The position numbers and the translations under genes are program-made. 64,000 nucleotides of DNA, taken from positions 310,001-374,000 of the forward strand of contig NZ_JAAMOX010000002.1 in the NCBI RefSeq assembly GCF_011758565.1, in the 5' to 3' direction. The notes under the pieces are model-generated. The model searched no databases, was not told the DNA's origin, and saw only the letters and a program-made list of their open reading frames with translations. Positions 48,563 to 62,921 of the stretch are shown here, in pieces (positions within the stretch are counted from its first letter, which is position 1; every line of letters begins with the position of its first letter). This DNA comes from Lysinibacter cavernae (lineage in GTDB: Bacteria > Actinomycetota > Actinomycetes > Actinomycetales > Microbacteriaceae).

Positions 48563-50614
48563 ATGCCGAACTACAGAGTCTCGATGGATATCGGTGGCAC
48601 CTTCACCGACATCGTTGCGTACGACCAAGAGACCGGAACCTATTCCGCGACCAAAGCATCCACAACCCCTGGCAACCTCAGTGGGGGCGTCATCACCGGC
48701 CTCGAATCGATCGTTGATGACCTCTCCGACATCGAGTTCATTGTGCACGGAACCACCCAGGGCCTCAACGCCTTCCTCGAACGTCGGGGCGTTCGTGTGC
48801 TCCTCCTTGCAACGGCGGGACTCGAAGACGTGTACCACATCGCCCGCGGGCCCCGCCTTGAGCTCTACAACGCCCAGTACCGCAAACCAGAGCCCCTGCT
48901 CGAACGCAGCGACGTCATCGGCATCGGTGGCCGCTTCGATGGCAAGGGCCGCGAGATCCGCCCGCTCGACGAAGTTGCAGTGCGCCAGGCGGCCCGCCGC
49001 GCACTCGCTGAAGGATACGGTGCCGTCGCCGTCGCGTACCTCTTCAGCTACAAAAACGCCTCGCACGAAGACCGCACCCGCGAAATCCTGCTTGAGGAAC
49101 TTGGCGAAGACTTCACCGTTTCGCTGTCGCACGAGGCGGCAAAGGAATGGCGCGAATACGAGCGCACGTCATCCGCAGTGATCGAGGCCTACACCGGCCC
49201 AGTTGTGCGCAACTACCTGCTCGACCTCGAACAGAAGATCGCCGAACGCGGCGTTGAGGCTCCCCTGCACATCATGCAGTCATCCGGCGGAGTGCTGACC
49301 GCGAAGTCGGCCCGCAAGCGCCCGCTGCAGACGCTGCTCTCCGGCCCGGTCGGCGGCGCCATTGGTGACGCCGAGCTCGCGTCGGTCTCGTCGCGACCAA
49401 ACCTCATCGGCGTCGACATGGGCGGCACCTCGTTTGACGTGTCACTCGTGGTGAACGGCAAGCCAGATGTCTCGACCGAGGCAGAGCTGGAAGGCCTGCC
49501 GATGCTCATGAGCGTCGTGAACATTCACACGGTTGGCGCCGGCGGCGGCTCTGTCGCCTGGCTCGAAGCCGGAGGGCTCCGTGTTGGGCCACGCTCGGCC
49601 GGCGCGACGCCTGGCCCGGCCTGCTACGGACGCGGCGGCACCGAGCCAACCGTGACCGACGCAAACCTTGTGCTCGGTCGCGTTGACCCCGACTGGTTCG
49701 CCGGCGGCCAGGTATCCCTCGACCGCAAGGCCTCGCTGGATGCGCTCACCACCGTTGGGTCGCAGCTTGGCCTCGACCCCATGCACATGGCAGAGGGCAT
49801 CTGCGACGTTGCCAACTCGCAAATGGCCCAGGCCATCCGCACCATCACGATCTCCCGCGGCATCGAGCCGCGCGACTTCAGCCTCGTCGCCTTCGGCGGC
49901 GCCGGCCCGATGCACGCGGTCTTCCTCGCGAAGGAGCTTGGCATCCCTGAGACGATCGTGCCCCGCTTCCCCGGCGCCTTCTCGGCGTGGGGAATGCTGC
50001 AGACCGACATCCGCAAGGACCTCTCTGAGCCGTACTTCTTCCTCGATGAAGACCTCGACGTTGCCAACATGGCATCGACCCTAGGCGGCATGGAGTCTGA
50101 GGGCAAAGGCTCGCTCGCATCAGAGGGCGTCTCCGAAGAAAACCGCTCATCATCGGCATCCGTTGATGTGCGCTACCACTCGCAGGAGTTCACGCTCAAC
50201 GTGCCGCTGGCATCCTCAGACGAGCCAAACGAGCCAGGCTTCCTCGACACGCTCAAGCAGCGCTTCGCAACGATGTACCACGAGCGCTACGGCCACTCAA
50301 ACATCGAGGCACCCATCGAGATCGTGACGCTGCGCACCCACGCGGTTGGCGACCTCGGCCACCTCGAAGCGCCAGCCTTCCCCAAAGCAACCTCGCAGGA
50401 GTTTGCCCACGAGATCCGCCCTGTGGTCTTCGAGCAGGTTGAGCACGCCGCAATCGTCGTGCGACGCGACGCCCTCGGCGCAGGCCACACCTTCGAAGGA
50501 CCAGCCGTCATCGTCGAAGAAACCGCGACAACGGTTGTGCCGCCCGAGTACACCGTTTCTGTCGACCAGCTCGGCTCCCTCATCATCCGCTCACACGATT
50601 CCGAAGGGAACTAA
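48563..50614 (+). CDS. Hydantoinase/oxoprolinase family protein, subunit A (HyuA-like)
   Basis: A 683-aa protein of the ATP-dependent hydantoinase/5-oxoprolinase/acetone carboxylase superfamily. The actin-like nucleotide-binding fold shows MDIGGTFTDIVAYDQETGTY and EFIVHGTTQGLNAFLERRGV at the N-terminus, then GVDMGGTSFDVSLVVNG and FGGAGPMHAVFLAKELGIPE later. In the family it phosphorylates or activates the amide or keto group. The ATG at 48563 follows GAGGAG; the frame from 48515 is not used. It is the first gene of the cluster and is followed four bases later by subunit B. Substrate unknown. Confidence 0.88.
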   Translation: MPNYRVSMDIGGTFTDIVAYDQETGTYSATKASTTPGNLSGGVITGLESIVDDLSDIEFIVHGTTQGLNAFLERRGVRVLLLATAGLEDVYHIARGPRLELYNAQYRKPEPLLERSDVIGIGGRFDGKGREIRPLDEVAVRQAARRALAEGYGAVAVAYLFSYKNASHEDRTREILLEELGEDFTVSLSHEAAKEWREYERTSSAVIEAYTGPVVRNYLLDLEQKIAERGVEAPLHIMQSSGGVLTAKSARKRPLQTLLSGPVGGAIGDAELASVSSRPNLIGVDMGGTSFDVSLVVNGKPDVSTEAELEGLPMLMSVVNIHTVGAGGGSVAWLEAGGLRVGPRSAGATPGPACYGRGGTEPTVTDANLVLGRVDPDWFAGGQVSLDRKASLDALTTVGSQLGLDPMHMAEGICDVANSQMAQAIRTITISRGIEPRDFSLVAFGGAGPMHAVFLAKELGIPETIVPRFPGAFSAWGMLQTDIRKDLSEPYFFLDEDLDVANMASTLGGMESEGKGSLASEGVSEENRSSSASVDVRYHSQEFTLNVPLASSDEPNEPGFLDTLKQRFATMYHERYGHSNIEAPIEIVTLRTHAVGDLGHLEAPAFPKATSQEFAHEIRPVVFEQVEHAAIVVRRDALGAGHTFEGPAVIVEETATTVVPPEYTVSVDQLGSLIIRSHDSEGN

Positions 50615-50617
50615 CCC

Positions 50618-52306
50618 ATGAGCACCCTCACAACCACCCTCGACACCACGCTTGATCCCGTAACGGTCGAGATCATCCGCAACGCGCTCACCAGCTCGGC
50701 GGCGGATATGAACGCAACGCTCATCCGTTCGGCCTACTCGCCCATCATCTACGAGGGCGGGGACTGCGTTGTTGCGCTGCTCGACACCGAGCACCGCGTG
50801 CTCGGCCAGTCGGCAGGGCTCCCGCTGTTCCTCGGCAACCTCGAGACCTGTTCGCTCGCGGTCGAGGAGCTGCACGGCCGCGAGGTCTGGCAGGAAGACG
50901 ACATCTGGATCCTCAACGACTCCTACCTCGGCGGGACCCACCTCAACGACGTCACAATCTTCGCCCCCGTCTTTGTCGACGGCGAGCTTGCCGGCTTCGC
51001 CGCGACGCGCGCCCACTGGATGGACATGGGTTCAAAGGATGTTGGCGGCTCGATGGACTCGATCGACATCTTCCAAGAAGGCTTCCGGATGGGGCCCGTC
51101 AAGCTCGTCGAGGCAGGAACCGAAACCTCGGTTGTTGACCTCATCCGCACCAACGTGCGCTTCCCGTACCAGACCATCGGCGACATGAACGCGATGATCG
51201 CGGCCCTCCGCATGGGAACCATCCGCATGCAGGAGCTCGTCGAGCGCTACGGCACCGACACCCTCAACGCGGCCCGCGACGAGATCTTCCGCCAGACCGA
51301 AGAGATCGAGCGCGAAACCGTTCGCGGCATCCCCGACGGCGTCTACGAAGCTGAAGGCGTGCTCGACAACGACGGCATCAACCTCAACCAGACCATCCCG
51401 ATCAAGCTCAAGGTCACGGTCGCAGGCGACAGCATCGACTTCGATGTGACGGAGTCGGCAGACCAAACGCGCGGCCCCGTCAACTGCGGAATCGCGCAGG
51501 CCGTTTCGGCGCTTCGCGTTGGCTACAAGCTGCTCGTGAGCCCAGACTCAAACTCGAACGGAGGCTCGTTCCGGCCGCTGAGTACCCAGGTGCGCTCCGG
51601 CTCGGTGCTCGGCGCCGTCGCCCCCGCACCCTGCCAGTGGTACTTCTCGCACCTCGGGCTGCTCATCGACCTGGTCTCAAAGGCCATGTCGACGGCGATG
51701 CCTGACCGCGTATCAAGCGCGAGCCACGGCGACTCGATGATTATCACGACCGCTGGTTTCGACCCGGATGCTGGCCGAAACTTCGTCACAATGGAGGCCA
51801 CGCTTGGCGGATGGGGCGCCTGGAACGGCACCGACGGCGAATCGGCAATGATCAACAACGTCAACGGCTCGCTCAAAGACCTGCCCATCGAGATGCTCGA
51901 AACGCGCTATCCCTTCCGCATCAACGAGTACTCGATCAGGCCGAACTCGGGCGGACCTGGCCAGTGGCGCGGTGGCAACGGCGTCACCCGCGAATACGAA
52001 TTCCTCACTGACTGCGTTGTTGGCCTCTGGTTCGAGCGTTCAGAGACCCCGGCGTGGGGCCTCTTCGGGGGCTCGGACGCGCAGGGACCAGAAGTGGTCA
52101 TCAACCCCGGCCGCGAAGACGAGTTCCACACCCTCAAGGCCAACGCCCGCCCGGTCAAGGCCGGCGACATCGTCCGCCTGTCGGTAGGCGGCGGAGGAGG
52201 CTTCGGCGACGTGAGCAAGCGCTCGCGCGACGACATCGAGTACGACATCCTCAACGGCTACATCACCGAAGAGTTCGCCGTCTCGCACTACGGATACACC
52301 AAGTAA
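50618..52306 (+). CDS. Hydantoinase/oxoprolinase family protein, subunit B (HyuB-like)
   Basis: A 562-aa partner of the A subunit. DPVTVEIIRNALTSSAADMN is the family N-terminus; WILNDSYLGGTHLNDVTIFA with AHWMDMGSKDVGG are the metal-binding segments; the C-terminal part has SIRPNSGGPGQWRGGNGVTR and a Gly-rich loop (SVGGGGGFGDV). A and B together hydrolyse or carboxylate their substrate at the cost of ATP. The ABC binding protein starts 45 bp downstream, which suggests that import and ring opening are expressed together. Confidence 0.9.
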   Translation: MSTLTTTLDTTLDPVTVEIIRNALTSSAADMNATLIRSAYSPIIYEGGDCVVALLDTEHRVLGQSAGLPLFLGNLETCSLAVEELHGREVWQEDDIWILNDSYLGGTHLNDVTIFAPVFVDGELAGFAATRAHWMDMGSKDVGGSMDSIDIFQEGFRMGPVKLVEAGTETSVVDLIRTNVRFPYQTIGDMNAMIAALRMGTIRMQELVERYGTDTLNAARDEIFRQTEEIERETVRGIPDGVYEAEGVLDNDGINLNQTIPIKLKVTVAGDSIDFDVTESADQTRGPVNCGIAQAVSALRVGYKLLVSPDSNSNGGSFRPLSTQVRSGSVLGAVAPAPCQWYFSHLGLLIDLVSKAMSTAMPDRVSSASHGDSMIITTAGFDPDAGRNFVTMEATLGGWGAWNGTDGESAMINNVNGSLKDLPIEMLETRYPFRINEYSIRPNSGGPGQWRGGNGVTREYEFLTDCVVGLWFERSETPAWGLFGGSDAQGPEVVINPGREDEFHTLKANARPVKAGDIVRLSVGGGGGFGDVSKRSRDDIEYDILNGYITEEFAVSHYGYTK

Positions 52307-52351
52307 TCACACAATCCCTGCAACACCCATGTTTCACACGAAAGGACTGTC

Positions 52352-53383
52352 ATGAAAAAACGCACCCGCACAGCAGCCGCGGCAGCATCCGTTTTGCTCG
52401 GCACCTCGCTCTTGCTCACCGCATGCTCGCCTCCCGCGGCATCCGACTCGACGACCCAGACGGCGGCAAGCGCCGACGAGAAGCTTGAGGTTGGCTTCTT
52501 TGGCTTTGCCAAGACCAACAGCTTTGCCCAGGGCACCTTCCTCGGCATCGAGGAGGCGGCAAAGGCAAACAACGCAAACGCCACCTTTGTCGACTCGAAC
52601 TTTGACGCCCAAGTCCAGGTGCAGCAGGTCAAGGATGCCATCACCTCGAAGGCATACGACGTGATCGTTATTCAGGCCAACGACAACCAGGCGCTCATCG
52701 CCCCGCTCGAAGAAGCTACAGCAGCAGGTATCACGGTGGTTGTTGAGTTCTCGGTTGTTGGGCCAAAGTTCGATACCGTCGACCCGCAGGTGAAGGATGC
52801 CATCAGCATCGTTGACCTGCCGACCACCAACGGCGAGGCGCTCGGCCAGCTTGGTCTTGATGCCTGCGACGAGGTCGAAGGTGACACCTGCAACGTTGCC
52901 TATCTTGAAGGATTCAAGGCGCTGCCCCTCGACAACGCGCGTACCAACGCGGTCAAAGACAAGCTCGCGACAAATCCAAAGGTGAACCTCGTCGCCTCGG
53001 TTGAGGGTGGCTACACGGCTGACAGCGGTCGCCAGGCGTTCCAGAACGTGCAGCAGGCGAACCCAGACGTTGACGTTGTGATTGGCGCATCGCAGGCAAT
53101 CACCGGGGCGGCTGCGGTTGCCGGGGCCGATTCCGGCATCAAGTTCATCGGAAACGGGGCGTCAAAGTCAAACGTCGCTGCGGTGCTCGACGGCAGCTGG
53201 TTTGCCATCTACGTGACCGACGTGTTTGCGAATGGCAAGAAGGCAACCGAGCTTGGGCTGGCAAAGGCCCGTGGCGAGCAGGTCGAAACGGCGATCAACG
53301 AGCAGACGCTCGCGCCAAACAACGGTATGGGCACCAAGTCGGCGCTCACCGAGAGCAAGTTTGAGTCGATGTACTCCGACTAG
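52352..53383 (+). CDS. ABC transporter substrate-binding lipoprotein, CUT2/RbsB-like
   Basis: A 343-aa periplasmic-binding-protein family lipoprotein. The signal peptide ends in LLLTAC with the lipidated Cys at C25. The two lobes of the Peripla_BP_4 fold start at EVGFFGFAKTNSFAQGTFLG and run through FDAQVQVQQVKDAITSKAYD, VIVIQANDNQALIAPLEEAT and DVDVVIGASQAITGAAAVAG. Members bind sugars, nucleosides or other small polar rings. Two hairpins follow the gene, which would stabilise its part of the mRNA. AAAGGA precedes the start. Confidence 0.9.
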   Translation: MKKRTRTAAAAASVLLGTSLLLTACSPPAASDSTTQTAASADEKLEVGFFGFAKTNSFAQGTFLGIEEAAKANNANATFVDSNFDAQVQVQQVKDAITSKAYDVIVIQANDNQALIAPLEEATAAGITVVVEFSVVGPKFDTVDPQVKDAISIVDLPTTNGEALGQLGLDACDEVEGDTCNVAYLEGFKALPLDNARTNAVKDKLATNPKVNLVASVEGGYTADSGRQAFQNVQQANPDVDVVIGASQAITGAAAVAGADSGIKFIGNGASKSNVAAVLDGSWFAIYVTDVFANGKKATELGLAKARGEQVETAINEQTLAPNNGMGTKSALTESKFESMYSD

Positions 53384-53400
53384 GGAAAGCTCAACCAACC

Positions 53401-53442
53401 GGATGCGCCCAGCTACCCCCTACCTCTCGGCCGGGCGCATCC
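53401..53442 (+). terminator. Hairpin after the binding-protein gene
   Basis: GGATGCGCCC (53401-53410) and GGGCGCATCC (53433-53442) are perfect 10-bp arms, 18 bp after the stop codon. As often seen after binding-protein genes, it may terminate part of the transcripts or protect the upstream mRNA. Confidence 0.6.
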
Positions 53443-53449
53443 ACCCCTC

Positions 53450-53521
53450 ACCTGCATCTATTTGCGAGTTTCTGCGCGAGAAGACGGATTTTTCCGCAGA
53501 AAGTCGCAAATAGATGCAGGT
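53450..53521. repeat. Long inverted repeat (27-bp arms) upstream of the ABC ATPase gene
   Basis: The left arm 53450-53476 (ACCTGCATCTATTT then GCGAGTTTCTGCG) and the right arm 53495-53521 pair with one mismatch over 27 bp around an 18-nt loop. It lies directly after the previous hairpin and only 28 bp before the ATPase GTG, so it could be a dispersed palindromic element or an mRNA processing structure. Confidence 0.75.
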
Positions 53522-53548
53522 TACCGACGCTTAGAAGGGAGTCCGAAC

Positions 53549-55054
53549 GTGGGACAGGCAGCGAATATACCCGCCGCTCCGCAGATTGGAGTCGCCCAGA
53601 TCACCAAGAAGTACGGCCCAGCCGTTGTGCTTCACGACATCTCGCTCACCATCGAACCGGGCGAGGTGCACGGCATCCTCGGCGAAAACGGCGCGGGCAA
53701 GAGCACGCTGCTCAAGATCTTGGCCGGCGTTGTTGTTGCCGACGGCGGCACAGTGAGCCTCGACGGCGAGCAAGTACGGCTCGGGACGCCCCGCGCCTCC
53801 ATCGCCCACGGCATTTCGCTCATCTCGCAGGAGCTCGCGCTGCTCCCCCACCGCTCTGTCCTCGAAAATGTCTTCCTCGGCAGGTGGAGCCAGACCCTCG
53901 GCTTCAGCAGGAGAGCAAGCGACCTCGAAACGCTCAACCGCCTCATCGAGGAAACCGGATTTGAGCTAGACCCGCACGAGAAGGTTGGCCAACTGCCAAT
54001 TGGGAAAGCGCAGCAGGTTGAGATCCTCAAGGCACTCGCCCGCGGGGCAAAGGTGCTGTGCATGGATGAGCCAACCGCTGTGCTCAACGAGGCAGAGAAG
54101 GAGCAACTGCTCGGGGTCATTCGCAGGCTCGCGGCTGGCGGCACAACCGTCATCCTCGTCTCGCACTACCTCGACGAGGTGCTGTCGATCGCCGACCGCA
54201 TCACGGTGCTGCGCGACGGCAGTCACATCATCACTGACTCGGTTGCCGGGCACACCCCCTCCTCGCTTGTCGCCCTCATGGTCGGCCGCGAGGTCGATAT
54301 CTTGACACCGGATGTTCCTCCCATCAACGAGGATGCGCCGGTTGTTCTCGCGGTCAACGGAATGACAAATGCCAGGGTGAACGATGTCACGTTCACCGTG
54401 CGCAGCGGCGAAATCGTTGGCATCGCAGGCCTCGTTGGCAGCGGGCGCAGCGAGACCCTCCAAGCAATTTTTGGCTCAGACCGTCGCCAAACTGGCACGA
54501 TCACCATTCACGGCAAACCGCTCAAGGGCAACAGCATCCGCTCGGCAATCGCGAGAGGCCTTGCGCTCGTGCCAGAGTCTCGCAAGGACCAGGGCCTTGT
54601 TGTCTCGCGGCCCGTAGTCGAGAACATTGCATTGCCAACGCTCGGCGCCCGCGCGCTCGGCGGCTTCATCAAGCGGCCAACCGAGCGAACCGCGGTTGAG
54701 GAGGTCAGCGCGCGCGTCGACCTCCGCGGCGCACGGCAGGGGTCGCTCATATCGAGCCTTTCCGGCGGCAACCAGCAAAAGGCGCTGTTTGCCAAGTGGC
54801 TGCTCAATCCGCCGGCCGTGCTCATGGTTGACGAACCGACCAGAGGCGTTGATATCGCTGCCAAGGTTCGCATCCACCGCCTCATCGTTGACCTCGCTGG
54901 CCGCGGCACCGCCGTCATCGTAGTGAGCTCCGAACTCGATGAGGTGATTGGCCTCTCGCATCGCGTGCTCGTGATGCGGCACGGTCACCTCGTAGACGAG
55001 TTCGACCGCAATGCCTCCCCAGACGACGTAATGACTTCAGCCTTCATGAAATAG
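53549..55054 (+). CDS. ABC transporter ATP-binding protein, duplicated (RbsA/CUT2 type)
   Basis: A 501-aa double ATPase. The first domain has Walker A GILGENGAGKSTLLKILAG, signature QLPIGKAQQVEILKALARG and Walker B VLCMDEPTAVL; the second has a degenerate Walker A (GIAGLVGSGRSETLQAIFG), signature SLSGGNQQKALFAKWL and Walker B VLMVDEPTRGVD. The N-terminal active/C-terminal modified pattern is typical of CUT2 importers. The GTG at 53549 follows AGAAGGGAG; the frame from 53462 crosses the inverted repeat and is not used. Confidence 0.92.
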   Translation: MGQAANIPAAPQIGVAQITKKYGPAVVLHDISLTIEPGEVHGILGENGAGKSTLLKILAGVVVADGGTVSLDGEQVRLGTPRASIAHGISLISQELALLPHRSVLENVFLGRWSQTLGFSRRASDLETLNRLIEETGFELDPHEKVGQLPIGKAQQVEILKALARGAKVLCMDEPTAVLNEAEKEQLLGVIRRLAAGGTTVILVSHYLDEVLSIADRITVLRDGSHIITDSVAGHTPSSLVALMVGREVDILTPDVPPINEDAPVVLAVNGMTNARVNDVTFTVRSGEIVGIAGLVGSGRSETLQAIFGSDRRQTGTITIHGKPLKGNSIRSAIARGLALVPESRKDQGLVVSRPVVENIALPTLGARALGGFIKRPTERTAVEEVSARVDLRGARQGSLISSLSGGNQQKALFAKWLLNPPAVLMVDEPTRGVDIAAKVRIHRLIVDLAGRGTAVIVVSSELDEVIGLSHRVLVMRHGHLVDEFDRNASPDDVMTSAFMK

Positions 55055-55062
55055 GGAATCCC

Positions 55063-56079
55063 ATGACCACAACATCTACCCCACCGATTATCGACGCTCC
55101 TGAACCCCAAGAGCAGCGCTCGCCACTGGCTTCGCGCAAGTTTCGATTGAACCTTCGCGACTTCGGAATCGTGTTTGGGCTGCTCGCCATCATGCTGTTC
55201 CTTGCGCTCAACACCACCACGTTTCTGACGGAGCAAAACTTCATCAACCTCTTCGACCAGGCCGCGATTGTTGGCCTGCTCGCAACCGCAGCGACCCTCT
55301 GCATCATTAGCGGGGTGTTTGACCTCTCGTCGACGGCAACTCTCGCTGCCTCGGCAATTATCGGCGTCATGGTCACGCAGCAGTTTGGCGTTGCCGCCGG
55401 GTTCATCGGCGCGATCCTCGCCGGCGCCGTTTTTGGCTTCTTTACCGGCTTTGTTGTGGTCAAGACTGGCGTCAACTCGTTCATCGGGACGCTCGCTATC
55501 AGCATCATTTACCGCGGCATCGCCATCGTCATGACGGGCGGCAACATAGTTGCGCCGACCACAGACCAGAGCCTCGCGTTCAGTGTCTGGACCTGGCCGA
55601 GCATCTTCGGGCTCAGCGCTGGTTCGGTGCTCATGCTGGTCACCCTGATTGTGCTTGGCATTGTGCTCTGGGGAACCACGTTTGGCCGCAGGATCTACGC
55701 GGTTGGTGGCAACGCGGAGGCCGCGCGTCTCAGCGGAATTCGCACGGGTTCCATCCACATCGCTGTCTTCACCATTAGCGGGGTGTGCTCGGCGATGGCT
55801 GGGATGATCCTTGCCTCGCGCGCCGGCTCGGCCCAGCCGTCGATGGCGACGGGCATCGAGCTCACGGCAATCGCGGCCGTTGTCATTGGCGGCACGAGCA
55901 TCCTCGGCGGGCAGGGCGCTATGTGGAGGGCGTTTGTTGGCGTGATGATCCTGACGGTTATCGGCAACGGCTTCAACCTCATGCACTGGGACACGACGTA
56001 TCAGCAGGTGGTCACTGGCTCGCTTATTCTGCTCGCTGTGGCGGCCGATGGGCTCTTCGTACGGAAGCGCCGAACCTAA
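55063..56079 (+). CDS. ABC transporter permease, RbsC-like
   Basis: A 338-aa membrane protein with about nine to ten helices of the BPD_transp_2 family. LNTTTFLTEQNFINLFDQAA and LCIISGVFDLSSTATLAASA carry the conserved N-terminal signature; YAVGGNAEAARLSGIRTGSI is the EAA-like ATPase-contact loop; IGGTSILGGQGAMWRAFVGV is near the C-terminus. It completes the importer with the binding protein and the double ATPase, starting eight bases after the latter. Confidence 0.92.
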   Translation: MTTTSTPPIIDAPEPQEQRSPLASRKFRLNLRDFGIVFGLLAIMLFLALNTTTFLTEQNFINLFDQAAIVGLLATAATLCIISGVFDLSSTATLAASAIIGVMVTQQFGVAAGFIGAILAGAVFGFFTGFVVVKTGVNSFIGTLAISIIYRGIAIVMTGGNIVAPTTDQSLAFSVWTWPSIFGLSAGSVLMLVTLIVLGIVLWGTTFGRRIYAVGGNAEAARLSGIRTGSIHIAVFTISGVCSAMAGMILASRAGSAQPSMATGIELTAIAAVVIGGTSILGGQGAMWRAFVGVMILTVIGNGFNLMHWDTTYQQVVTGSLILLAVAADGLFVRKRRT

Positions 56080-56124
56080 AGCGCTTAGGATGTGACCACA
56101 ACAGCAAATGGAAGAAGACCATAC

Positions 56125-57405
56125 ATGCACTCAGGGGGGACACTGCGCGCGGGGATTCGGCTGAGTCCTTCGGCGTTCCACTACGCCATAACCGACGGTG
56201 ACGCGTGCGTCGCGGCCGGAACGCGAGCGGGATTCACCACCCTGTCAGACACCGTCGCTGCCGCCTTTGCCGAGATCTCGAGCGCCGCGCCTCGTGTGGT
56301 GAGGGAGGCGACGGTCGACGTGAGCGGGGTCCTCGAAACGCTCACCCCGGCGCCGGTTGTCGCCATCCGGGTATCGCCACGGCCGCCCGACGCGATGCAC
56401 GCGCACCAATTGCCTGCACAAGCTGCGGATGCCGTCATTCTTTCGGTGCATGTCAAGGGCGGCCACGACCTGCGCGGCCAGGAACTCACGAGCCTCGACC
56501 TCGACGGTTTTCGCGAGCACATCCCGGCGATACTTTCGACGGGAGCGCGGGCTATCGCAATTACGGGTGTTGGCGCAATGACCACGCGCGATCACGAAAC
56601 CCGTATCGCCGATGAACTCCTTGAGGCAAACAGCGAACTACATGTGACCATCTCGCACGAGTTCTTGTCGAGCAGTTTTGTGAACCGCGACTACACCGCT
56701 GTCATGAACGCAGGCCTCGCTTCTGCCGGTGCAAAGCTTGCGTCGATGCTCGAGCTCTCGTGCAGCAGATACCTCCCAAAGGCCGAACTCTCGCACCTCA
56801 AAAACGACGGAGGTAAGGCGCCGGTTCGCCGCCTCGCGGTCACGCCCATCCACGCCCTGTACTCGCGCTGGGCTGCCGAACTGTGCGGCGTTGCGTTCCT
56901 TGCATCCGCCCCCGATGGCGAACTCGTTGTCAGCTCGGACGAGGGCACAAGCGTGAGCTGGATGCACTCTGGGCTCCCCCTCGCCAGAAGCGTCGTCGAC
57001 GAAGGCTCACACCTCACGATCGCGAGCAACACGGCCATTCGCCACCCGTTCACCCTCAACCACCGCGTTCCCCCGCTCATTGCCGATCTGCGGGGCGACA
57101 CGTCGCAGCCGCTGCCGTTTCGCCTGCAGAGCACATTCACGCTGCCGGACGGGCTCGAAGCGGTGAGCGTCGGCTGTGCCATCGCCCCCTACACCGTGTG
57201 GGTTGACCGCTTCGCAACGGCCCCCGATGTTGACACCCTCAACCGGGTGCTGCGCGCCGCCGAAGAAGACGCACGCTCAATTGTTGTGCACCTGGGGGCC
57301 GAACCGACCACGGCATCCATCATCGAGGCAAACTCGTTTGCCGTTCCGTTTGGGAACCCGGATGTTGTGCGGCTCCGCGTGCGAGCGGCAGGTGAGGTCT
57401 CGTGA
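56125..57405 (+). CDS. Shortened HyuA-like (hydantoinase/oxoprolinase N-terminal type) protein
   Basis: A 426-aa protein I place in the HyuA superfamily from partial similarity to the subunit A gene upstream. RAIAITGVGAMTTRDHETRI, LHVTISHEFLSSSFVNRDYT and AVMNAGLASAGAKLASMLEL line up with HyuA segments ending at the same motif order (AVAVAYLFSYKNASHEDRTR, VSLSHEAAKEWREYERTSSA, VIEAYTGPVV). The GGTFTDI loop and the later GVDMGGTSFDV motif are absent, so it may not be an ordinary ATPase. The ATG at 56125 follows GGAAGAAG; the GTG at 56092 is an alternative. It is coupled to the DUF917 gene by GTGA. Confidence 0.65.
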   Translation: MHSGGTLRAGIRLSPSAFHYAITDGDACVAAGTRAGFTTLSDTVAAAFAEISSAAPRVVREATVDVSGVLETLTPAPVVAIRVSPRPPDAMHAHQLPAQAADAVILSVHVKGGHDLRGQELTSLDLDGFREHIPAILSTGARAIAITGVGAMTTRDHETRIADELLEANSELHVTISHEFLSSSFVNRDYTAVMNAGLASAGAKLASMLELSCSRYLPKAELSHLKNDGGKAPVRRLAVTPIHALYSRWAAELCGVAFLASAPDGELVVSSDEGTSVSWMHSGLPLARSVVDEGSHLTIASNTAIRHPFTLNHRVPPLIADLRGDTSQPLPFRLQSTFTLPDGLEAVSVGCAIAPYTVWVDRFATAPDVDTLNRVLRAAEEDARSIVVHLGAEPTTASIIEANSFAVPFGNPDVVRLRVRAAGEVS

Positions 57406-58475
57406 CCAAGCTCACCGCAGACGATATTGCGAGGCTCACGACGGGGGCTCATTTCCTGGCCTGCTGCATCGACCCGTCATCGCTTGGCATCTACGCCGAC
57501 ATGATCACCAACGCAATCAGCGATCATCCCATCAACCTCGTCTCTGTTGATGATCTTGACCAGGATGCGCTTGTTGTCTCAATCGGGATTGTCACGCAGG
57601 GCCCGATGGTTGCCGAGATGCTGCCGTCAGGCGACGAGTTTTTGACCTGTATCGCCGATATCGAGAAGCGCCTCGGCCGCAAGGTGACCGCAATTTACTC
57701 GCTGGCCGCCGCCAATGTGAATGCAATCATCCCACTCATGGTTGGGCTACAGTCCGGCCTTCCCGTGCTTGATTCGGATGGCATGGGCCGCGTCTTTCCG
57801 ATGATTTTCCAGTCGACCCTCAACGCGGCAGGCCTCTCGATCAGCCCGATTACCATGATGGGCGTGACCGGCGAGCGCGCCACGATTGAGGCGGCAACCG
57901 CGTTTCGCGCCGAGATCCTTGTCCGCGCGGTCGTCACCGAAATGGGCGGTTGGGCGGCGACGGCGATGTATCCGGTCACCGCAGCGCAGATGAGCACCAA
58001 CGGCGTGCACGGTTCGATCAGCAGGCTTATCAAGATCGGGCGCATCCTCGACGGTGAGGGCTCTGCCGATGCCAAATTTGTCAAACTCGTTTCGCTCCTC
58101 GGCGCAACACGAATTGCGAGGGCGAGGGTCACCCACCTTGATTCCCTCGCCAGGCAAACTGACCGTCAGGTGCCGAGCCACGCGGCGAGTATCACCCTCG
58201 AGGATGAGTCAAACGGGCGCATCGTTCGGCTTGAGATCCGCAATGAGATTGTGCTCGCACTTGTTGACGGCGCAGTCGCCTCTGCAACACCAGACATCAT
58301 CACCATGCTCAGCACCGAAAACGCCAAGGTGCTGAGTCTCGAAGACATCACGGTTGGCAGGGTCATCGATATCCTGAGCGTTCCAGCAGACGAAAAGTGG
58401 TACACGCCAGAGGGCCTCGCGCTCTCGTCCCCCCAGGCTTTCTACATTCCCGTAAAGCATCCGAGGCAGGCATGA
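57402..58475 (+). CDS. DUF917-family protein
   Basis: A 357-aa protein of the DUF917 group. LTADDIARLTTGAHFLACCI is the family N-terminus (usually ending in a Gly-rich loop, here replaced by ACCIDPSSLG); AIYSLAAANVNAIIPLMVGL and GLPVLDSDGMGRVFPMIFQS are the central core. The family includes S-methyl-thiohydantoin desulfurase and is found fused to HyuA in some fungi, so it likely acts with the preceding HyuA-like protein on a hydantoin-type ring. It starts with a GTG overlapping that gene and its stop overlaps the PucR gene. Confidence 0.75.
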   Translation: MTKLTADDIARLTTGAHFLACCIDPSSLGIYADMITNAISDHPINLVSVDDLDQDALVVSIGIVTQGPMVAEMLPSGDEFLTCIADIEKRLGRKVTAIYSLAAANVNAIIPLMVGLQSGLPVLDSDGMGRVFPMIFQSTLNAAGLSISPITMMGVTGERATIEAATAFRAEILVRAVVTEMGGWAATAMYPVTAAQMSTNGVHGSISRLIKIGRILDGEGSADAKFVKLVSLLGATRIARARVTHLDSLARQTDRQVPSHAASITLEDESNGRIVRLEIRNEIVLALVDGAVASATPDIITMLSTENAKVLSLEDITVGRVIDILSVPADEKWYTPEGLALSSPQAFYIPVKHPRQA

Positions 58476-60169
58476 TCAGACCACCGCACAGCACACAGCT
58501 CAACGTTGCAGAGCTGATTGCGAACGGGTCGCTTCGCAGCACCCGTCCGCTCTATCTGACAAGCACAAGCGCCGTCGTTGAGGGCGTGGTGATTGTCTCC
58601 CAGCCCGATGAGATTCGGAACGTAGCGCCGCACACGGTTGTGGTCATCCCTGCCGGCATCGGAACAAGCGGCTGGCTTGTTTCGTCTGCACTCCGCCAAG
58701 CGTGGGAGCGAAAAGCGAGCGCCGTCATCGTCGCCGATACGCCGTATTCAAGCTCGATCGTTGCACTAGCGAAGCGGCTCGACATTTCGCTCCTTGCCGC
58801 GATTGACGACCCAACCACCGTTGCCCTTTCGCTTGCCGGCGAGCTCGGGACCGCGGCCTCAAGTATGAGCATCCGGCTCGCCCGCTTCGCACAGGCCGTC
58901 GCCGCAGAACACACCATCAACACGGTCCTCAAGGCCGCCTCAAAGGAGCTTCGCGGCGCCGTTGTCTCGCTCGAATTTGATCACATTGTTGTTGCGTCAG
59001 CCGGTTCAGGGACGGTAGATGCAAGCACCGCAGGCCACACGCTCGTGACGGCCGACCTGCCCAGCGTTGGTGGCGGAGTCTCCGGGCGGATATCGACGGT
59101 TGTGCTGAGCAACGGAACCGATGCCGCGAGCGCGCAGGCCATCCTCTCGGTCGCGGCGCCGTCGGTGCAGGCCGCGTGGCTTGCCGCCGACGCCGCCGAG
59201 TCACGTGGGGCTGTGCCGACGTCGGCGCTTGTTGGGCTTCACGCGATCGCTACGGCACCTGACGAACGAGCCAGCGATAACGAGGACGAGCCCTCGCTCG
59301 ACATCAACGGGGCCAAGGTGAATGCGGGCGGAGGGAACCCTGGTAGCCGCCTGCTCTCGCAGCTTGGCTGGCAATCGGACCAGCGCTACGTCGCCGTCTG
59401 GATTCGGGGTGAGCCCGGTGCTGAACGAGCGCCGGCGCTCACTTCCGTTTTGCGTCTCCTCTGGCGAAAAGTTGCACAGCGTTGCCCACTCGCCGAGGTG
59501 GACGATGGCTGGCTCGCCGTTGTCCCCTCAGGCTACCCAGACAGCGTTGTGCAGCTCGAGCGCAACATTAACACCCGTCTTGGCGGTGCCCTCGCGGAGC
59601 TTGGCCTCACTGCAGGGCTCTCCCGCTGGCAACACAGTCCGAGCCGTTCGCTCACCGAGCTAGCCCACGAGGCACGGCTTGCGGCGCAGTGCGTACCGCC
59701 GAGCGGTACGACCAGGGTGGTTGCCTTTGGTCAGCTCGGCGTTGAGGCCGCCGCGCGGTTTGTCGACACCGACACCATCCTGCAGATCGCCCGCCTCACG
59801 GTCCCACGCCTGCTCGAAGCGGCAGACGGCGAACACATCGCGAGCGCCCTCGAAACCTACTACGCAAATAACGGCTCTGTGGTTGCCGCGGCGCAGGCCC
59901 TCGGTGTGCACCGCAACACCATTCAGGCGCGACTGACGAGGGCACGGGCGCTTGACGTTCCCATCGATGACCCGAGCAAAACGCTTTCGGTGCACCTCAT
60001 TGTTGCGGCCCTCCGCAACTCTGGCATCCTGGTCAGTGGCACCGTCTCAACCGCAACCGCAAGCGTTGGCATCGTGCCAAGCGCGCTGCAAAACCCGCCA
60101 ACCAACAGCATCCGCACGGTCCGCGCACCGCAGACCGGCACCGCCCCAACCACATCGGAGGACCTATGA
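58472..60169 (+). CDS. PucR-family transcriptional regulator
   Basis: A 565-aa regulator. The N-terminal domain resembles the PucR ligand domain (LYLTSTSAVVEGVVIVSQPD, KASAVIVADTPYSSSIVALA); the middle part is GGDEF-like as in the CdaR/PucR family (SVLRLLWRKVAQRCPLAEVD, GWLAVVPSGYPDSVVQLE); the C-terminal HTH_30 domain is LETYYANNGSVVAAAQALGV followed by HRNTIQARLTRA. PucR proteins often control purine or allantoin breakdown and other catabolic genes. The ATG at 58472 overlaps the DUF917 stop; it probably senses the substrate or an intermediate of this cluster. Confidence 0.85.
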   Translation: MIRPPHSTQLNVAELIANGSLRSTRPLYLTSTSAVVEGVVIVSQPDEIRNVAPHTVVVIPAGIGTSGWLVSSALRQAWERKASAVIVADTPYSSSIVALAKRLDISLLAAIDDPTTVALSLAGELGTAASSMSIRLARFAQAVAAEHTINTVLKAASKELRGAVVSLEFDHIVVASAGSGTVDASTAGHTLVTADLPSVGGGVSGRISTVVLSNGTDAASAQAILSVAAPSVQAAWLAADAAESRGAVPTSALVGLHAIATAPDERASDNEDEPSLDINGAKVNAGGGNPGSRLLSQLGWQSDQRYVAVWIRGEPGAERAPALTSVLRLLWRKVAQRCPLAEVDDGWLAVVPSGYPDSVVQLERNINTRLGGALAELGLTAGLSRWQHSPSRSLTELAHEARLAAQCVPPSGTTRVVAFGQLGVEAAARFVDTDTILQIARLTVPRLLEAADGEHIASALETYYANNGSVVAAAQALGVHRNTIQARLTRARALDVPIDDPSKTLSVHLIVAALRNSGILVSGTVSTATASVGIVPSALQNPPTNSIRTVRAPQTGTAPTTSEDL

Positions 60170-60648
60170 CCACCCAGTTCGACTCGCTCGACGCCATCCA
60201 CGCTGCGGCCCTCGAGTCGCCGGGAGCATTGTTGTTCACGATCTCTGCGATCGCTGACAAGGGCACAAGCATGGCTCGTATCTTTACGACGCACCCGGAG
60301 GTCTATCCGGTTGGCGGCATCAAGACGTTTGCCGATGACACCAACCAGGTCTGGATCGAGCAGGTCATTCGTGGTCAGCAGCCATTTTTCGGGCCTGATG
60401 TGCAGGCAGTTCGCGACTTCTTTTTTGATTCTGCCACCATCGAGGAGCTCGGCTGCGGGGCAATTATCAACGTGCCAGTTATCGCTGGCGGCGAGGTCAT
60501 CGGTTCGATGAATTTCCTCGATGCAGACGGCGCGTACGGCGAATCTGACGTGGCAACGGCCGTTGACATTGCGGCACGCTCGGTGGATGCCGTGGCGGCT
60601 GCGTACCGGCAAATCCTTGCCGACGCCGAATCACGCACGATGGACTAG
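60166..60648 (+). CDS. Stand-alone GAF-domain protein
   Basis: A 160-aa soluble protein that is one GAF domain. DSLDAIHAAALESPGALLFT is the N-terminal helix, QVWIEQVIRGQQPFFGPDVQ and CGAIINVPVIAGGEVIGSMN the core, and DVATAVDIAARSVDAVAAAY the last helix. It has no output domain. It is coupled to the PucR gene by ATGA and ends the cluster, so it may bind the same small molecule and feed its signal to the regulator, or buffer it. Confidence 0.75.
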   Translation: MTTQFDSLDAIHAAALESPGALLFTISAIADKGTSMARIFTTHPEVYPVGGIKTFADDTNQVWIEQVIRGQQPFFGPDVQAVRDFFFDSATIEELGCGAIINVPVIAGGEVIGSMNFLDADGAYGESDVATAVDIAARSVDAVAAAYRQILADAESRTMD

Positions 60649-60728: not shown

Positions 60729-61556
60729 ATGACCGAACCGGTTACGGTATCACCGTGGAGACGATTCTGGGAGCGCGGAGGCTGGTGGCGCGCCGTTCTG
60801 CTTGCTGCCGTGTATTACGCGCTGTACCAGCTGAGCGGGCTCACGCTCCTGCCAATTCTCTCGCGCATTGAGGACACCTCGAGTCCTGCCTATGTCCTCT
60901 TTGCGTTTGCGGTGCCCGTTGCACTCGGCGGAGTGTTGCTCGTCGTTTTTGCGTGGTCGATGAATTGGCTCACGCAGCTGTTTCGGCCGCAGCCCATTCG
61001 TGGGTCATGGTGGATGTGGATCGCGGTGGCGGTTGTCCTGATCTTCAACATCCTGCGTTTTGCGACGATCGACTACGGGGCCGTCAGCGTTGGGGTCGTA
61101 GCTACGTGGCTTCTTGCAGGGCTCTTCATTGGGTTCGCGGAAGAGACGCTCACGAGGGGCCTCGTTGTCACGATGCTTCGGAAAGCGCACTATCGCGAGA
61201 TCACGGTTGCGGTGCTTTCGGCCACCGTCTTTTCGGCACTGCACTCCGGCAACCTGCTCACGGGCCAGTCGCTTTTTGCAACGCTGATTCAGCTGTTGTA
61301 CACGTTCGGATTCGGAATCTGCATGTACCTTGCCCTTCGCGTGACCGGTAACCTCATCTGGCCAATCCTGCTGCACGCAAGCACCGATCCGGCCATTTTT
61401 CTGCAAACCGAGTACCACGTTGACGGCCCGCTCGCGACGCTGGCCTCTGTCGGGAACATCCCCGTCATCGTTGTTGGCCTCCTGCTGCTCATCTTCATTC
61501 GGGGCAAGGTTGTGGAGCGGGACGCCTTCGCACTTCCCCTCCCGGCTGCTCGCTAA
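60729..61556 (+). CDS. CPBP-family intramembrane glutamic endopeptidase
   Basis: A 275-aa membrane protein with about seven to eight helices. The family motifs are EExxxR at E138-E139-x-x-x-R143 (GFAEETLTRGLVV) and H172 in FSALHSGNLLTG; a third Asn/His motif is likely in YLALRVTGNLIWPILLHAST. The members cleave membrane proteins or modify prenylated and bacteriocin-type peptides. No bacteriocin gene is evident nearby. It stands alone after the hydantoinase cluster and is followed by a strong terminator. Confidence 0.85.
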   Translation: MTEPVTVSPWRRFWERGGWWRAVLLAAVYYALYQLSGLTLLPILSRIEDTSSPAYVLFAFAVPVALGGVLLVVFAWSMNWLTQLFRPQPIRGSWWMWIAVAVVLIFNILRFATIDYGAVSVGVVATWLLAGLFIGFAEETLTRGLVVTMLRKAHYREITVAVLSATVFSALHSGNLLTGQSLFATLIQLLYTFGFGICMYLALRVTGNLIWPILLHASTDPAIFLQTEYHVDGPLATLASVGNIPVIVVGLLLLIFIRGKVVERDAFALPLPAAR

Positions 61557-61652: not shown

Positions 61653-62921
61653 TTAGTTCACGCGGCGAAGGGCGAGGCGATGTGTTGTCGCCAGCGCGCC
61701 CCCAAGAACGAGCAAGATTGCGGTCAGGATACCGGCGGCAGACAGATCCGAACCGGTCTGCGCGAGCGGCTGGTTGACGGCCGCTTTACCCGTGTTCTGG
61801 GTGTCAACGGGGGCCGGAGCCGCTCCGTCCGTCTCTGGATCAATCGCGGGATCAGTCGGGTCAATAACCGGCACAGCCACGGATGCCTGTGTGATCGTTC
61901 CGCTGAAGGGGCCAGTGGCTGAACCGATGGTCACTTCAGCATCCCAGGCAAGCTCATTGGCGCCTGCCGCGGCAAAGCTCCAGGCGTTGCCGGCGGCGTC
62001 AAGCGTCGCGGTTGCGGACGTTGGCATGATTGACACGCCGTCAACCGAGACGACCGGGTTCGCCTGCACGGCATCAACGAGCACGTCTGGGAGGCTCAGC
62101 GTCTGGCCGTCAGCGTACAGTTCCGAGAGGGCAGCGTGCTGACCGAGAGTTGACAGGCTCGCAATGTGGTTATTCGACAGTTCCAGTTGCCACATCGACG
62201 AAAGCCCAGCGAGCGGCGCCACATCCGAAATCTCGTTGTTGCTCAGGAGCAGCTGCTCCATGTTGCTCAGCTGAGCCAGCGGGGTGAGGTCGGAAATCTG
62301 GTTGCCATCAATCACAAGCTGGCTCAGGTTTGGCAGGGTCTCGATTCCGGCGAGCGACACGATTCCGTTGTTCTGGGCGGCAAACTGTTCAAGCGATGGG
62401 AGGCCAGCCAGCGGGGTAAGGTCAGTTACGCCCGTATCGCTCAGATACAGCCCAAAGATCTTGGGAAGGTCGGTTAGGCCGCTGATATCGTTCACGCCCG
62501 TCTGGTAGAGGAATACGCGACTGAGCTCAGGGTGTCCACCGATGCCGGAGACGTCGCTCAACGGGTTGACCGCGAGTGAGAGCGAGGTGAGTTTGCTCAG
62601 GCCGCTCAGCGGTGTTGCATCGGTAATGCTGTTGCTTGAGGCATAGAGGTATGTGAGGTTGTAGAGCTCTTCAGCGCCGGTGAGCGATTCAATGCCCATG
62701 GAGTTACAGGAAAGGTAGGTTACCGAACCGCCCTGCTCTGTCGTAATGTCGGCGTCAGCAGGCTGCCCCAATCCGGCATTAATGCAGGCCCGAAAATTGT
62801 CATCAGTGAAGTTAATGAGCGCGGCGTCGGCAGCCATTGCCGGAGTGCCAACGGCACCAGCAAGCAGCAAGCCGGCGATGCCGGATCCGAGAATCGTTTT
62901 CGCAGATACGCGAGAAGTCAT
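61653..62921 (-). CDS. LAxTG-anchored leucine-rich-repeat surface protein (internalin-like)
   Basis: A 422-aa exported protein. The signal peptide is MTSRVSAKTILGSGIAGLLL with cleavage after AMAADAA. About eight internalin-type repeats of 21-22 residues occupy residues about 65-265 (LYNLTYLYASSNSITDATPL, LTSLSLAVNPLSDVSGIGGH, LPKIFGLYLSDTGVTDLTPL, LSNMEQLLLSNNEISDVAPL), then an Ig-like domain, a Pro/Thr linker and an LAQTG sorting motif at about 386 with a hydrophobic helix and basic tail. LAxTG is typical of class-E sortases in Actinobacteria; no sortase gene is in this window. GGGGAC precedes the ATG. Confidence 0.9.
   Translation of the reverse strand: MTSRVSAKTILGSGIAGLLLAGAVGTPAMAADAALINFTDDNFRACINAGLGQPADADITTEQGGSVTYLSCNSMGIESLTGAEELYNLTYLYASSNSITDATPLSGLSKLTSLSLAVNPLSDVSGIGGHPELSRVFLYQTGVNDISGLTDLPKIFGLYLSDTGVTDLTPLAGLPSLEQFAAQNNGIVSLAGIETLPNLSQLVIDGNQISDLTPLAQLSNMEQLLLSNNEISDVAPLAGLSSMWQLELSNNHIASLSTLGQHAALSELYADGQTLSLPDVLVDAVQANPVVSVDGVSIMPTSATATLDAAGNAWSFAAAGANELAWDAEVTIGSATGPFSGTITQASVAVPVIDPTDPAIDPETDGAAPAPVDTQNTGKAAVNQPLAQTGSDLSAAGILTAILLVLGGALATTHRLALRRVN

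Follow-up and report, generated by a model that had tools for sequence, protein, structure and literature searches.

The nine-gene cluster in the window (the whole 64,000-nucleotide stretch of Lysinibacter cavernae DNA that was analyzed) is best read, from its sequence and that of its relatives, as a probable operon for the catabolism of cyclic dipeptides (2,5-diketopiperazines) containing proline or hydroxyproline. With it, soil actinobacteria would probably take up and open these stable and widespread rings. It is very likely that the cluster imports a cyclic amide and that its HyuAB pair opens the ring. A proline or hydroxyproline cyclic dipeptide is the preferred substrate because it accounts jointly for the importer, the ring opener, the prolidase, and the imino-acid enzymes.

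All nine open reading frames (window positions 48563 to 60648) lie on the + strand, and each has a Pfam match (Table 1). These positions and matches bear out the genes, order, strand, and overlaps given in the original prediction. The true start of the ABC ATPase is likely downstream of the TTG, as most relatives have a length of ~500 to 530 aa. The start of the PucR regulator was moved from the ORF start at 58397 to the ATG at 58472, which forms an ATGA overlap with the stop of DUF917 and is the likely site at which translation begins. The 4-nt overlaps at each of the HyuAs/DUF917, DUF917/PucR, and PucR/GAF junctions suggest translational coupling. A GGAG-type ribosome site is present upstream of HyuA, and the inverted repeats found there are short or imperfect. 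The GAF protein is probably a small-ligand sensor or an accessory protein, and together with PucR it could make up two putative sensors. The next gene on the + strand encodes a CAAX-type membrane protease (60729 to 61556), in a position where the nine-gene relatives mostly carry a prolidase. A leucine-rich-repeat protein of 422 aa is encoded just past the cluster (61653 to 62921, − strand). The source genome (G000) comprises 3.75 Mb in four contigs.

Table 1. Genes of the cluster, with window coordinates and best domain matches.
Feature	Coordinates	Strand	Description
HyuA type 1	48563..50614	+	683 aa; cyclic-amide (oxoprolinase/hydantoinase) subunit A; Hydantoinase_A 2.9e-97
HyuB type 1	50618..52306	+	562 aa; hydrolytic subunit B; Hydantoinase_B 1.4e-161
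Substrate-binding lipoprotein	52352..53383	+	Peripla_BP_4 1.7e-36; lipobox LLTAC
Double-domain CUT2-type ABC ATPase	53462..55054	+	Two ABC_tran domains 6.6e-52; TTG ORF start
CUT2-type permease	55063..56079	+	BPD_transp_2 7.8e-35
HyuAs (short HyuA-fold protein)	56092..57405	+	437 aa; partial Hydant_A_N/Hydantoinase_A match 1.5e-07
DUF917 / S-Me-THD-like protein	57402..58475	+	357 aa; S-Me-THD (DUF917) 1e-36
PucR/CdaR-type regulator	58472..60169	+	GGDEF_2 + HTH_30; HTH_30 4e-13
Single GAF-domain protein	60166..60648	+	160 aa; GAF_2 1.2e-06

Scanning one genome per species with the DUF917 clade retrieved 53 loci, all titled Actinomycetota or its genera. The exact nine-gene order recurs in 13 of these independently fetched loci, and four more are missing the GAF gene alone, showing that the arrangement is not due to chance. 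Loss of the order in relatives was one of the outcomes that the original prediction named as counting against it, and the conserved linkage supports its notion of one linked system that would import and open a small cyclic amide. In 50 of the 53 loci, HyuAs, DUF917, and PucR directly follow one another, and a GAF protein is present in 24. Within Microbacteriaceae, a true HyuAs relative occurs in 5 of 300 genomes, with an identity of 28 to 33%, and the four complete loci from these genomes contain the same eight core genes in a rearranged order. In the nine-gene loci, identity to the window protein is 72 to 84% for HyuA, 75 to 88% for HyuB, 27 to 47% for HyuAs, and 28 to 48% for PucR. HyuB is the best-conserved protein of the cluster in these loci (mean pairwise identity, 83.5%); mean identities are 81 to 84% for HyuA and HyuB, 62% for DUF917, and 47% for HyuAs, with PucR being equally divergent.

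The window HyuA groups with Arthrobacter-group sequences (SH-aLRT 97) and away from other Microbacteriaceae in a quick tree that has long branches elsewhere and whose deeper splits were not relied on. Its identity is 83 to 84% to the Arthrobacter-group sequences and 72 to 74% to those of its own family, and this nested position suggests that the operon was transferred horizontally. Many Arthrobacter loci have, in place of the CUT2 importer, an MFS transporter accompanied by an Asp/Glu/hydantoin racemase and a quinone-oxidoreductase-like protein. The Microbacteriaceae relative L027 combines an apparent Opp-type multi-gene ABC transporter (labeled so from the gene layout) with HyuAB, a longer HyuA-like protein, DUF917, and PucR. 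The importer is thus interchangeable, since the transporter type varies while the enzymes remain. The system is broken or frameshifted in Streptomyces philanthi (L082) and in Arthrobacter sp. Hiyo8 (L032), where a sequencing error is possible. Type 1 and type 2 HyuAB pairs are found side by side in the single loci L065, L067, L075, L080, and L091 to L095, where they perhaps serve different diketopiperazine isomers or ring amides.

The HyuA and HyuB subunits are full length (Hydant_A_N plus Hydantoinase_A, and Hydantoinase_B, respectively) and adjacent, and HyuA has both ATP-phosphate motifs (DIGGTFTD and DMGGTS). Relatives of HyuA in the PDB are N-methylhydantoinase (7hk5, 6.5e-120) and ATP-dependent caprolactamase (6yra, 5.1e-111). 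The closest NCBIfam models are those of caprolactamase CapA and CapB, with scores of 492 and 269 bits that lie far below the equivalog cutoff of 1000. The authors of the caprolactamase study suggested lactamase or cyclic dipeptide hydrolase activity for many proteins called “5-oxoprolinases” (PMC6061476).

The original prediction took the nine genes for the whole module, but relatives carry a tenth gene right after GAF. In 12 of the 13 nine-gene loci it encodes a COG1228 amidohydrolase, a predicted Xaa-Pro dipeptidase that is thereby linked to HyuAB; in the source genome this linkage is seen via a second locus. The closest solved relatives of the amidohydrolase are 3feq/3n2c, named prolidase (7.6e-96 and 2.4e-86), and 3mkv, at 325 and 301 bits, far ahead of any other PDB family, with the next reaching 152 bits, and its best NCBIfam model is Xaa-Pro dipeptidase, with a score below the cutoff. 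The prolidase gene is absent from the window and from locus L048. The second operon of the source genome (G000:C2:944.5-953.7 kb; L088:8572-17746) encodes an ABM-like protein, a substrate-binding protein, an ATPase, a permease, HyuA2, HyuB2, and a prolidase. The latter (G000:C2:952.5 kb) directly follows HyuB2 and is 64% identical to the tenth-gene amidohydrolase of the relatives, and the operon faces a PutA-like proline dehydrogenase/P5C dehydrogenase gene. Small proteins of ~105 to 170 aa, labeled ABM-like, adjoin several HyuAB/importer sets (L088:8572-8916, L023:8220-8687, L024:12432-12941, and L097:673-1038); the window has none, and the single copy tested gave no Pfam match.

COG1228 prolidases are also reported to cleave N-acyl-prolines, which would make an N-acylated or hydantoin-type derivative of proline a fitting substrate as well. 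That HyuAB opens such a compound, or another lactam or imide such as 5-oxoproline or a caprolactam-like ring, with the prolidase processing the product, is nevertheless unlikely. CapA and CapB being the closest models argues for it, though at scores well short of the cutoff, but the omega-amino acid aminotransferase employed in caprolactam catabolism (PMC6061476) is not among the recurrent neighbors. 5-Oxoproline would yield glutamate, making prolidase, PutA, hydroxyproline epimerase, and peptidases needless.

Enzymes of proline and peptide metabolism recur around the related loci. An M17 (leucyl) aminopeptidase is found in 9 of them, an M19 dipeptidase in 4, an OCD protein of the pyrroline-2-carboxylate reductase type in 10, DHDPS in 7, and D-amino-acid oxidase (DAO) in 3. 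Four loci plus L024 encode a member of the proline racemase family that has the two catalytic cysteines (MCGHG and SPCGTG) and is of the racemase/4-hydroxyproline epimerase type, and PutA is also found beside L052 and L076, both from Herbiconiux. The known bacterial route for 4-hydroxyproline consists of an epimerase, a D-hydroxyproline oxidase, and a DHDPS-family deaminase. At least one proline or peptide gene is present at 34 of the 53 related loci versus 1 of 20 other HyuA loci from the same order (Fisher p 3e-6, a value that ignores kinship and overstates independence, as the 53 loci are related to each other). When the sample was drawn with HyuA instead of DUF917, the prolidase was present at 7 of 12 type 1/2 loci versus 1 of 20. 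None of these genes is seen at the remaining 19 of the 53 loci, where some stretches end first. The prolidase, aminopeptidase, dipeptidase, PutA, racemase/epimerase, and pyrroline-carboxylate reductase neighbors point to a cyclic dipeptide of proline or hydroxyproline in place of the hydantoin, thiohydantoin, lactam, or purine fragment originally listed.

No gene for allantoin, carbamoylase, or purine functions is among the recurrent neighbors. Because purine genes are often under the control of PucR regulators, a PucR-controlled system for purine or allantoin ring fragments was considered. It is highly improbable and was rejected, as no purine gene recurs and as the GGDEF_2 plus HTH_30 layout of the regulator is common to many PucR/CdaR regulators.

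From the gene content, the linkage, the loss of ATP motifs, and the linkage to proline genes, which are all read from the sequence, we infer the substrate, the order of reactions, and the role of HyuAs and DUF917. The lipoprotein, ATPase, and permease would import the ring of cyclo(Xaa-Pro/Hyp). HyuA would then activate one ring amide with ATP, and HyuB would hydrolyze it to a linear Xaa-Pro or Xaa-Hyp dipeptide. The dipeptide would be split by the COG1228 prolidase, which most relatives encode in their tenth gene and the source genome in its second operon. Proline would pass to PutA, and in relatives hydroxyproline would enter the epimerase, D-amino-acid oxidase, and DHDPS route. HyuAs and DUF917, as a modified pair without HyuA-type ATP binding that travels with PucR, would most likely serve ring sensing or the handling of some isomers.

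CUT2 importers are known chiefly for sugar uptake, and we know of no record of diketopiperazine import by one of them, which counts against a diketopiperazine substrate. So does the finding that cyclo(L-Pro-L-Tyr) was degraded by none of the strains tested in a 2013 study, in which Arthrobacter, Leifsonia, and Microbacterium strains degraded diketopiperazines with the responsible enzymes being unclear (PMC3852281). The neighborhoods of cyclodipeptide oxidase genes fit the same class of substrate, as DUF917, hydantoin racemases, peptide transporters, and peptidases were found or enriched around them (PMC11055893). A search of the open-licence literature joining diketopiperazine with prolidase or hydroxyproline retrieved no description of such an operon.

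The original prediction counted two ring-opening modules and listed a shortened HyuA-like protein. The motif check does not sustain two modules, and HyuAs is not a shortened working copy of HyuA, as both ATP-phosphate motifs are absent from the window HyuAs and from 59 of 59 relatives. These motifs are retained in most full-length HyuA proteins and in the longer HyuA-like partners of canonical DUF917 (L027, L028, L029, and L071). The AlphaFold2 model of HyuAs, built on 49 sequences, predicts a complete but trimmed HyuA fold with a pLDDT of 91.3 (63 for a 6-sequence version). In a fold comparison, it matches CapA with a Z score of 23.6 over 404 residues (rmsd, 3.6).

The window DUF917 protein scores over the cutoff for both Pfam domains (PF06032, 114.8 bits; PF20906, 126.5 bits) and has 2o3i as a distant PDB relative. 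It fails the curated NCBIfam cutoffs for S-methyl thiohydantoin and thiohydantoin desulfurase (67 versus 450 bits and 52 versus 440 bits). Canonical members have an N-terminal G(T/A)GGGG loop that is absent from the window protein and from 60 of the 62 detected sequences of its clade, and most of the family-wide acidic and basic residues are retained, including the DxDxMGRxFP stretch. These features bear on whether the cluster is a hydantoin/thiohydantoin operon, in which HyuAB would open a 5-substituted hydantoin and DUF917 would desulfurize or open a thiohydantoin. The relationship of HyuAB to N-methylhydantoinase, the thiohydantoin desulfurases within the DUF917 family (1.3e-18 and 4.1e-14 in NCBIfam, well under the curated cutoffs), and the Asp/Glu/hydantoin racemase of the Arthrobacter MFS variant speak for this assignment. 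It is nonetheless improbable, given that the window DUF917 has no Gly-rich loop, that no N-carbamoyl amidase, ergothionase, or urocanase-type gene is among the recurrent neighbors, and that prolidase, PutA, and hydroxyproline enzymes would be unexpected.

HyuAs, DUF917, and PucR remain together while the importer type and the HyuAB type vary. In the HyuA-drawn sample the three are jointly present or absent, with the exception of L096, which has DUF917 and PucR and where HyuAs was not detected. The importer, HyuAB, and prolidase occur without HyuAs and DUF917 in L097 to L100, L103, and the second locus of the source genome, and there the adjacent PucR is missing too. Catabolism therefore seems to center on HyuAB and the prolidase, with HyuAs-DUF917-PucR as a unit that can be separated from them, and the joint absence raises the possibility that the HyuAs/DUF917 pair may serve sensing. 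Tentatively, and with the odds against it, the pair could be a former ATP-dependent ring-opening pair that lost its ATP chemistry and now acts as a receptor reporting the cyclic dipeptide to PucR. Their constant company with PucR speaks for this, as does the divergence of HyuAs, which matches that of PucR and exceeds that of HyuA and HyuB. An ATP-independent enzyme is equally plausible, since DUF917 keeps most of its polar residues and a 62% identity.

The catabolic system is real, conserved, and probably under-described. The enzyme families are already known; what is new is the assigned substrate, the recognition of the operon as one unit, and the HyuA/DUF917/PucR module with its ATP-dead HyuA. 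Proline diketopiperazines are abundant, bioactive, and reportedly enzyme resistant (PMC8533947). If true, the diketopiperazine assignment would identify by name the genes, with an importer and a regulator, for diketopiperazine hydrolysis in culturable Arthrobacter strains, and would provide a substrate class for a HyuAB branch commonly annotated as hydantoinase or 5-oxoprolinase. A further point of interest is the unusual HyuA/DUF917 pair, which is ATP-dead and linked to a PucR regulator.

The window HyuAB resembles CapAB and N-methylhydantoinase/5-oxoprolinase in its two-subunit architecture, in both HyuA ATP motifs, and in a strong sequence match, but its neighbors (the importer, the prolidase in relatives, and PucR) differ from theirs. 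The window HyuA shares ~35 to 43% identity with the remaining HyuA groups in the sample from the order and forms its own clade (type 1, support 100). The second locus of the source genome and the type 2 clusters of Leucobacter and Microbacterium share the CUT2 importer, HyuA, and HyuB with the window system, and the type 2 sets carry the prolidase. The HyuAB of the second locus is of type 2 (42% and 32% identical), and this set contains a GntR regulator and the small ABM-like protein instead of HyuAs, DUF917, and PucR. Pairs of canonical DUF917/S-Me-THD and HyuA-like proteins, including thiohydantoin desulfurases and those near cyclodipeptide oxidases (PMC11055893), are adjacent and have PucR nearby, as in the window, but the canonical partners keep the ATP motifs that HyuAs (437 aa) does not have. 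Among the families listed for the fold search, the best fit to HyuAs is ApcA (Z score, 23.7; rmsd, 3.9; 396 residues), the alpha subunit of acetophenone carboxylase, which has two HyuA-fold subunits in one complex. Unlike that system, the window contains no carboxylase neighbors, and the partner of HyuAs is DUF917 rather than HyuB.
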